This document shows, one piece after another, positions 28,224 to 30,522 of a stretch of DNA of 35,682 nt. Under the pieces are notes generated by a model. The model had not been told where the DNA came from and searched no databases. It worked only from the letters and a program-made list of their open reading frames with translations. Made by a program: the position numbers and the translations under genes. Each line of letters opens with the position of its first letter. Position 1 is the first letter of the stretch. This DNA is from Nanobdellota archaeon (GTDB lineage Archaea; Nanobdellota; Nanobdellia; Parvarchaeales; Parvarchaeaceae), in contig JAJZXE010000001.1 in the NCBI GenBank assembly GCA_021802505.1, forward strand, positions 1 through 35,682. The letters are read 5' to 3'.

Positions 28224-28340
28224 TGTGAATAAAGGAACTTATATCCCAGAGCCTCTTTTTACACAAAATTAATAACTGTTTTTGATTTTTCTGATAGTGC
28301 AATTTAAGTCCAATCTAATCTTTAGCATGTAAAAAATATC

Positions 28341-28410
28341 GCCCAGAGAGGGTTTGATCCCTCTCTGTCCAGTCCTCGAAGCTCTTTATTTCTTCGATTC
28401 CGCTCTGGGC
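28341..28410 (-). ncRNA. Candidate tRNA-like/hairpin RNA of unknown type
   Basis: Minus strand: GCCCAGA...GAGGG[ATCAAA]CCCTC-TCTGGGC (acceptor-like 7 bp continuous with a T-arm-like 5 bp), plus hairpin TCGAAG[AAATAAAGAG]CTTCGA. TATA-like gatataatatac about 20 nt upstream on the minus strand; TTTTTT just past the 3' end. Confidence 0.4.
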
Positions 28411-28560
28411 ACACAACCCTACCCGGGTATATTATATCTCGTCCTTAATTGAACTTAATATAACTTCTTACTTTATCTCTAGAAACTCGATATATTTATA
28501 AGAAAGTTCCGATACTCAAAGTCAAAAAATAGATTAATTTACTGAGCTGCTTATTTTTAT

Positions 28561-29670: not shown

Positions 29671-29760
29671 AAGATTTAAATTATCTTGCCTGCAACTGCA
29701 TATCATATGGTTAAATTCGTGATTTTCCAGCTTGCATTTTTATAAAATTAAACAAAAGAC

Positions 29761-29795
29761 GGGCATCGAAATTAAATTTATATGCCCCGAACGGG
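29761..29795 (+). repeat. Direct repeat copy A: displaced tRNA-Glu 3' end plus 3' flank (att-like)
   Basis: gggcatcgaaattaaatttatatgccccgaacggg; 33/35 identical to 30374-30408. Confidence 0.85.
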
Positions 29796-30050
29796 CTGTG
29801 GCATTCCTGCTATATTAAAATGGTTACTTTAAGATTCGGATGTATTTAAGTGTTTAATCTTAACACATGTTGCTGTAAAAGTTATTTTGTCATACTATTA
29901 GGAGGATGATACTTAATTTAGAGGGTTTCTACGGAGCCGTAATAATTAAACACATAAAAATGTCAACAAATGTCATAAATTATGAAAACAGGCAGTTTTG
30001 CATGAAAAGTACAGGTGGACTCGTGCACATGCACAAACGCTCTTAAAACA

Positions 30051-30060
30051 TTTAAATATA
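30051..30060 (+). promoter_or_regulatory. TATA box for the candidate RNA at 30081
   Basis: aacatttaaatatagat; about 26 nt upstream of the predicted RNA 5' end. Confidence 0.5.
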
Positions 30061-30080: not shown

Positions 30081-30165
30081 ATGAATGGGTAAGTCCAGAT
30101 CCAATATGTATACCTTCTGGTGTACCTTACCTGACTTGTCAAGTTGAGGGTTTGGGGCCATTCAT
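30081..30165 (+). ncRNA. Candidate structured small RNA next to a DUF3800-like fragment
   Basis: Closing stem ATGAATGG/CCATTCAT (8 bp), GGTAAG/CTTACC, hairpin GTATACC[TTCT]GGTGTAC (includes a U-G pair valid only on +), TATA upstream, tttgttttt tract downstream. Confidence 0.5.
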
Positions 30166-30392
30166 GATTTGTTTTTCCATAGCTCTATATTATCTTTATT
30201 GACTATCTTATCTCTTATAATATTAAAATAGAAATCATCGTTTAAATTCCATTTTCTGTGTACGGACCACGCAACGAAGTCAACTACTAATAAACCATTA
30301 TCTGTAAATGATTCAACTTGATTAAACTTTATCTTCTTGCCAGAAAAAACTTTTTTAATATAATTCTCAAACTGGGCATCGAAATTAAATTC
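30162..30392 (-). pseudogene. 5'-truncated DUF3800-like C-terminal fragment
   Basis: Own translation: EFNFDAQFENYIKKVFSGKKIKFNQVESFTDNGLLVVDFVAWSVHRKWNLNDDFYFNIIRDKIVNKDNIELWKNKS*; DUF3800 C-terminal pattern (GLxxxDFVAWxxxRK...FYxxIxxKI). No start codon; truncated at the att-like repeat. Confidence 0.65.
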
Positions 30393-30408
30393 ATATGCCC
30401 CGACCGGG
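30374..30408 (+). repeat. Direct repeat copy B: overlaps the 3' end of the intact tRNA-Glu gene
   Basis: gggcatcgaaattaaattcatatgccccgaccggg. Confidence 0.85.
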
Positions 30409-30468
30409 ATTTGAACCCGGGTTTCCGCCTCGAAAGGGCGGAGTCCTTGGCCTCTAGACTATCGGGGC
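30397..30468 (-). tRNA. tRNA-Glu (anticodon UUC)
   Basis: GCCCCGA-TA-GTCTAGAGGCCAAGGAC-T-CCGCC[CTTTCGA]GGCGG-AAAC-CCGGG[TTCAAAT]CCCGG-TCGGGGC; 72 nt, full cloverleaf. Confidence 0.96.
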
Positions 30469-30522
30469 ATACTTTATGTAGAAACCATTTAAACATTTAA
30501 ACATTAAGGCGTTTAAATAGAT

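Follow-up and report, generated by a model that had tools for sequence, protein, structure and literature searches.

A predicted small structured RNA convergent with DUF3800 genes in archaea, with a remnant copy beside a tRNA-Glu gene of a Nanobdellota archaeon

The DNA analyzed here, referred to as the window, is the full 35,682-nt stretch of contig JAJZXE010000001.1 from a Nanobdellota archaeon. It carries a tRNA-Glu gene flanked by a short segment in which the 3' end of a truncated DUF3800 gene meets, on the opposite strand, a putative structured RNA (hereafter the window copy). The features of this locus are listed in Table 1; the open frame around the gene fragment runs from 30395 to 30165 (minus strand).

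Table 1. Features of the DUF3800/RNA locus and the adjoining tRNA-Glu gene; coordinates are those of the window.
Feature	Coordinates	Strand	Basis or remark
Att-like direct repeat, left copy	29738-29800		Direct repeat
TATA box tttaaatata, putative RNA promoter	30051-30060	+	Starts 30 nt ahead of the first base of the outer stem
Predicted structured RNA of the archaeal DUF3800-associated family, 85 nt	30081-30165	+	Covariance models excluding the window; fold
Outer stem P1, 5' arm ATGAATGG	30081-30088	+	Pairs with 30158-30165; fold; P1 covaries in the family
Internal loop GUAAGU, conserved and unpaired	30089-30094	+	Family: near-invariant GGUAA, then CC
Stem P2, 5' arm CCAGAUCC	30095-30102	+	Pairs with 30148-30155; fold; covariation in the family
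Hairpin P3, GUAUACC-UUCU-GGUGUAC	30108-30125	+	Sequence and structure both conserved
Linker, exceeding that of relatives by about 12 nt	30126-30147	+	12-nt insertion in cmsearch alignments
Stem P2, 3' arm GGGUUUGG	30148-30155	+	Fold; R3 match
Outer stem P1, 3' arm CCATTCAT = CCAUUCAU	30158-30165	+	Abuts the DUF3800 stop codon on the opposite strand
Oligo-T tract TTTTT, probable transcription end	30172-30176	+	Sequence; relatives T-rich at +2 to +7
DUF3800 (RNase HII-like) C-terminal fragment, 77 aa	30165-30386	-	Stop codon 30167-30165
Att-like direct repeat, right copy	30351-30413		Overlaps the 3' end of tRNA-Glu
tRNA-Glu (TTC), integration target	30395-30469	-	tRNA prediction

The TATA box, both arms of P1, the arms of hairpin P3 (GTATACC at 30108-30114 and GGTGTAC at 30119-30125) and the T-tract lie exactly where an earlier sequence-only reading of this DNA had placed them. 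The inner stem that it proposed, GGTAAG paired with CTTACC, is not part of the conserved fold and was ruled out, as the GUAAGU loop is conserved as unpaired across the family and the second stem is instead formed by CCAGAUCC and GGGUUUGG. The RNA was assigned correctly to the plus strand: on this strand 30081-30165 folds with -27.8 kcal/mol, better than dinucleotide shuffles (z = -2.4, vs. -0.4 for the minus strand), and its G-U pairs make the fold specific to that strand. The energy alone is weak evidence, because 2.1% of the 85-nt windows taken on both strands of the whole window sequence fold equally well or better. All helices of the window copy pair, and the longer linker is predicted to form an extra small hairpin peculiar to it. 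A 62-aa ORF antisense to the RNA (30161-29973) was rejected as a gene; it has no Pfam hit, and the stem covariation described below explains the conserved DNA better.

The gene fragment, previously described only as DUF3800-like, proved to be the C-terminus of a DUF3800 protein. By itself it gives no hit against Pfam, but it matches an intact PF12686 (DUF3800) protein with an E-value of 5e-8, and its best match is the intact DUF3800 homolog of locus L156 (46% identity over 71 aa, E 3e-19). Six-frame searches of related genomes retrieved intact homologs of about 205-240 aa, and both of the two tested by Pfam belong to PF12686; no close relatives of the fragment were found in viral contigs. Residues invariant among DUF3800 proteins include an N-terminal Asp-Glu as well as two single Asp residues, one central and one C-terminal. 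Having lost the N-terminal half, the fragment lacks the Asp-Glu motif and the central Asp, and the invariant His and Gln (H159 and Q169 in the numbering of alignment A12) are replaced, from which it is inferred to be inactive. The same genome contains a second, intact DUF3800 gene (L157, 1414-2133, contig 1; 38.5 bits to PF12686), whose product is a possible trans partner of the window RNA, an action for which there are no data. A GC-rich stem-loop 3' of this second gene was considered as an RNA and discarded, since it folds no better than chance (z = -1.2).

Relatives of the RNA were sought through the protein: DUF3800 homologs of the fragment at 30165-30386 (minus strand) were collected and the DNA past their stop codons was inspected, so that the family was defined without the window copy. 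In nine of these homologs (eight at first, then L021) the same motif occurs on the opposite strand past the stop codon and comprises an outer stem, a GGUAA loop, CC followed by a second stem, and a hairpin GUGUACC/GGUGCAC. At a tenth locus (L020) the convergent position is occupied by an RNA that scores above threshold as Rfam DUF3800-III. In the nine-sequence alignment (A4) 96% of the cells are paired, vs. 78% in shuffles, compensatory changes occur at 14 of the 22 pairs, and the covariation score is 0.611, compared with 0.254 when shuffled and at most 0.148 when the partners are slid. An alignment of 46 sequences, whose fitting to the model biases it in that direction (A4 was made without such fitting), is 93.5% paired and shows many U-G and G-U pairs, changes on both sides at 17 of 22 pairs (8 of 9 compensatory in P2) and a score of 0.528 vs. 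0.182. Covariation among homologs, the absence of which would have counted against the sequence-only reading, is strong in both alignments. The consensus architecture is P1, GUAA internal loop, P2, P3 hairpin (GURYACC/GGUGYAC), P2' and P1'.

The flanks of the structure are conserved as well. Among 46 related loci the TATA score reaches at least 7/8 in 45, the best match in most cases begins 28-30 nt ahead of the outer stem, a spacing that the window fits, and a T-rich stretch follows at +2 to +7; the promoter and oligo-T end recognized earlier in the window, both retained, occupy positions common to its relatives. The usual distance from an archaeal TATA box to the start of transcription places that start at the structure itself. 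Since the TATA spacing and the T-rich end flank P1, the transcript would be a closed structure with no free 5' or 3' tail that could act as a guide. In the absence of transcript data, comparative evidence identifies 30081-30165 as a real small structured RNA, albeit a predicted one, and it is very probable, by inference, that it is transcribed.

Membership of the window copy was assessed with three covariance models from which the window sequence was absent: R1 (nine relatives), R2 (42 sequences, mostly of the GUAAAA type) and R3 (five sequences of the GUAAGU type). Each has a sole match in the window (35.7 kb), at 30083-30163 on the plus strand, with 21.3 bits (E = 1.4e-3) for R1, 16.0 bits (E = 0.066) for R2 and 30.0 bits (E = 4.2e-6) for R3; over the whole 763-kb genome the R3 match has an E-value of 8.9e-5. 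R1 is the cleanest test because R3 was built after the GUAAGU type of the window had been seen, and the weak score from the broad R2 marks the window copy as a divergent member. It nevertheless meets the P1-GUAA-P2-P3 structure, the convergent DUF3800 3' end and the TATA and T-rich positions. As L156, the best match of the gene fragment, also has a GUAAGU-type RNA, gene and RNA of the window would belong to the same branch. On these grounds the window copy is assigned to the archaeal DUF3800-associated RNA family. R3 hits in one further genome (L159 and L160 in G362) resemble a repeat without DUF3800 and were set aside.

None of the DUF3800 RNA motifs listed in Rfam describes this family. A scan of the window with Rfam 15 at the gathering threshold recovered two tRNAs and nothing else, a permissive Rfam search of the locus gave no match, and neither did DUF3800-III (RF02962) against the window RNA (110 bases, E up to 10). 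No RNA of the family was recognized at the gathering threshold among the loci tested: members score below the 43.8 bits required by DUF3800-III, and the relatives closest to the window reach 22.5 and 20.3 bits. DUF3800-III resembles the family in that it adjoins DUF3800 genes, shows GUAAGUCC and a second stem after its outer stem, and is convergent in L020; it differs in its Rfam model of 108 nt and in its junction, and the DUF3800-III of L020 is matched by none of R1, R2 and R3. DUF3800-VII (RF02967), seen in viral contigs, and DUF3800-IX (RF02968), seen in a Saccharibacteria contig near a DUF3800 match, are likewise small structured RNAs beside DUF3800 genes but match neither the archaeal family nor the window. 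The suggestion that the window RNA is of a kind named after DUF3800 holds as far as its association with that gene in archaea is concerned and fails for the published Rfam motifs, none of which is met at threshold. The family is best regarded, from sequence comparison, as new, unlisted in Rfam 15 and related to DUF3800-III. BLASTN searches with the RNA returned only short, chance-like matches in 93 relatives and nothing meaningful in phages.

R1 detects 20 copies in 18 of the 371 genomes of the phylum and four more in the family of G035; an intact DUF3800 gene adjoins 16 of these 24. For a wider scan of GTDB genomes the closer DUF3800 alignment A7 was used, as the diverse alignment A6 was too variable for the collection; it yielded 40 loci, in 35 of which the RNA lies on the opposite strand at the 3' end of the gene. 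Hosts include Nanoarchaeota, Pacearchaeota, Woesearchaeota, Micrarchaeota, Diapherotrites, Methanoperedens, Methanolobus, Thermoplasmatales, Methanobacteriaceae and one member of the Bacteroidota. On plasmid II of Methanobacterium congolense an RNA-matching sequence and the 3' end of a DUF3800-annotated gene are some 150 bp apart, again in convergent orientation. The convergence noted in the window, where the RNA ends on the stop codon of the fragment, and its archaeal setting are therefore recurrent traits seen in dozens of archaea. In several pairs of loci DNA similarity extends for about 700 bp, from approximately the 5' end of the RNA to the start of the gene, between unrelated flanks, which indicates that RNA and gene travel together. 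A long insertion relative to the model was observed in the copy of Candidatus ainarchaeum (L113, 3104-3204), with the rest of the module intact.

This arrangement could also mean that the RNA regulates DUF3800 mRNA as an antisense or convergent transcript, limiting expression through 3'-end collision or pairing. The RNA does abut or overlap the stop codon in some loci (the window and L010), yet in many others it overlaps the mRNA little or not at all, compensatory changes preserve the internal fold, and orphan copies survive where no target gene is left; regulation of this type is considered very unlikely.

The surroundings of the window copy support the proposal that it lies in a tRNA-integrated remnant. 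A direct repeat of 63 nt (78% identity, with a nearly identical core of about 40 nt), which includes the 3' end of tRNA-Glu and the copies of which are 613 bp apart, brackets the segment; the DUF3800 fragment begins at the right copy, and the front of the gene is lost. In several congeners the tRNA is conserved together with the gene that adjoins it opposite the 3' flank, and this flank differs in each of the 15 congener loci inspected, which points to a site where DNA comes and goes and hence to an apparent integration hotspot. None of the congeners searched has the window RNA. Elsewhere in the window, between two genes, the minus strand of 28340-28410 has a strong fold closed by GCCCAGAG/CTCTGGGC (z = -4.8 in the 85-nt scan and -3.0 over 28290-28440), which resembles a degenerate tRNA and is called by neither ARAGORN nor Rfam.

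A setting of this kind raises the question of whether the structure acts as DNA, being the end, the recombination site or a folded single-stranded form of an element of about 700 bp moved by DUF3800. RNase H-fold proteins include transposases and integrases, homology of the module is bounded by the RNA and the start of the gene, and the window copy lies next to a tRNA and between att-like repeats. The positioned TATA boxes ahead and T-rich ends behind, the strand specificity imposed by G-U pairs, a fold search for DUF3800 that gives RNase HII and not integrases, and the lack of a predicted tRNA gene in 19 of 20 other RNA loci all oppose a DNA element, which appears highly improbable.

In several loci the RNA has outlived its gene. 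Besides the window, a readable DUF3800 C-terminus without a full open frame accompanies the RNA of L153, only the last DUF3800 codons are left beside those of L066 and L069, and no clear DUF3800 adjoins those of L073, L077, L081, L082 and L083. The window copy is accordingly interpreted as the putative remnant of a module whose gene front was lost and whose RNA structure stayed intact. Whether the window RNA still functions is less clear, and there is almost an even chance that it is a neutral leftover without present function, the family being real in either case: its neighboring gene lacks the N-terminus and residues invariant in homologs, the RNA is divergent and congeners searched do not have it. 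The pairing of all its helices, the persistence of TATA box and T-tract and the intact DUF3800 on contig 1, as a possible partner in trans, speak against such neutrality.

Two viral contigs carry the RNA as a solitary element. In one (L162, 8917-8989; R1 41.9 bits, R3 46.3 bits; 89-kb contig) it precedes terminase genes, and in the other (L163, 8763-8829; R1 66.4 bits; 39-kb contig) it lies among apparent tail genes. The stretches inspected, 18.6 kb of the first contig and 12.7 kb of the second, revealed no DUF3800; the rest of the contigs was outside the scope of the search and may possibly encode one. Three further viral pattern matches (L164-L166) do not fold as the family does and were judged to be chance. 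Viral RNAs without an adjoining gene suggest, without proving it, that the RNA controls the DUF3800 protein. Phages carry solitary mimics of antitoxin RNAs (pseudo-ToxI; PMC5086642), and viruses encode solitary crRNA mimics as RNA anti-CRISPRs (Racr; PMC10651486). Because the solitary viral copies fit this pattern, restraint of the protein by the RNA is favored, by inference, over help.

An AlphaFold2 model of DUF3800 (pLDDT 93.8, pTM 0.90) has RNase HII/H2 enzymes as its 22 best PDB matches, among them the archaeal RNase HII 1eke (E 5e-7, TM 0.58), and the fold, as modeled, resembles RNase HII, which also shares with DUF3800 the N-terminal Asp-Glu and further conserved Asp residues. The best match is only 19% identical, and DUF3800 is distinguished by invariant H, S and Q residues near the C-terminus and by the attached RNA gene. 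The family has been described as having an RNase H fold with a catalytic rearrangement (PMC10910872) and as associated with non-coding RNAs and some Cas12 systems (PMC10910872; PMC12669027).

The latter association bears on another explanation, in which DUF3800 depends for its activity on the RNA as a positive cofactor that provides a scaffold or specificity, for example when cutting foreign nucleic acid. Some Cas12a2 (V-A2) and VI-F CRISPR loci include DUF3800 as an accessory gene (PMC10910872; PMC12669027), for which such a role has been proposed, one module lies close to a CRISPR array in Methanolobus psychrotolerans, and the conserved loop sequences resemble a protein-binding site. Closure of the RNA by P1 right after the predicted start, however, leaves no free guide, and an inhibitor better fits RNAs that outlast the gene or are carried by viruses without an adjoining DUF3800, so that a cofactor role is held to be unlikely.

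The family, its structure, its promoter position, its association with DUF3800, the predicted protein fold and the local decay of the gene are established by the analysis; the mechanism they may serve is a proposal. An intact module would produce an RNA of about 70 nt, with its own promoter and oligo-T end, that meets the 3' end of the gene for an RNase HII-like protein. The protein would recognize the conserved internal loop and the P3 hairpin, and the nuclease would be held inactive in the resulting complex, as by RNA antitoxins; viruses may borrow the RNA as a decoy, and the copy next to tRNA-Glu would have lost the front of the gene and kept the RNA. That the window RNA is the surviving half of such a module, the RNA of which binds the nuclease and keeps it inactive, is proposed with moderate confidence. 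Taken separately, binding of the RNA to DUF3800 is fairly likely, an inference without binding data. Restraint in preference to help remains tentative, as neither inhibition nor DUF3800 activity is supported by data; orphan RNAs may be neutral leftovers, and no relative of RNase HII is known to be toxic.

Such a module would resemble type III toxin-antitoxin systems (ToxIN, CptIN, AbiQ), in which a nuclease gene is paired with a small structured RNA and whose antitoxins, as mentioned above, can be mimicked by RNAs carried by phages. The antitoxins known from type III systems consist of pseudoknotted repeats located upstream of the toxin gene. The archaeal RNA, in contrast, is single and convergent, with its own promoter position, no repeats and no established pseudoknot, so it does not meet the type III criterion of tandem repeats that precede the toxin gene and are transcribed together with it; the nuclease fold of DUF3800 is, furthermore, RNase HII-like. 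With Racr it has in common the solitary viral copies of a host defense RNA, although Racr mimic CRISPR repeats and the archaeal RNA is a neighbor of DUF3800, with an inferred effect. In its widest form, the hypothesis holds that DUF3800 and its RNA are an archaeal defense based on an RNA-restrained nuclease, similar to type III but with convergent genes and an RNase HII-like effector, which tailed viruses escape by means of solitary decoy RNAs placed among their packaging or tail genes and in which orphan host copies, such as that of the window, could protect in trans; this is speculative and rather unlikely.

No function has been assigned to the widespread DUF3800 family or to the candidate RNAs repeatedly seen next to its genes. 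To this picture the analysis adds a strongly covarying family of archaeal RNAs that goes unrecognized by Rfam 15, its tail-to-tail position with DUF3800 in methanogens, Thermoplasmatales and DPANN archaea, a predicted RNase HII-like fold for the protein, and the occurrence of the RNA in two viral contigs without an adjoining gene. As plasmid II of M. congolense carries the module, the function of a DUF3800 RNA becomes directly testable in a cultured methanogen.

Some observations on the neighborhood of the modules may be added. The module of Methanolobus psychrotolerans (L109, 3585-4794) lies about 400 bp from the CRISPR array. A protein whose family is unknown and whose N-terminus bears an HxDxS-like motif recurs near the module in three genomes (L155, 677-1225; L153, 2-274; and the L077 region), and the two tested gave no significant Pfam match. 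Lastly, the modules of L154 and L156, which come from two genera and differ in RNA type, lie between genes that look homologous, which suggests that the modules are orthologous or share an insertion site.
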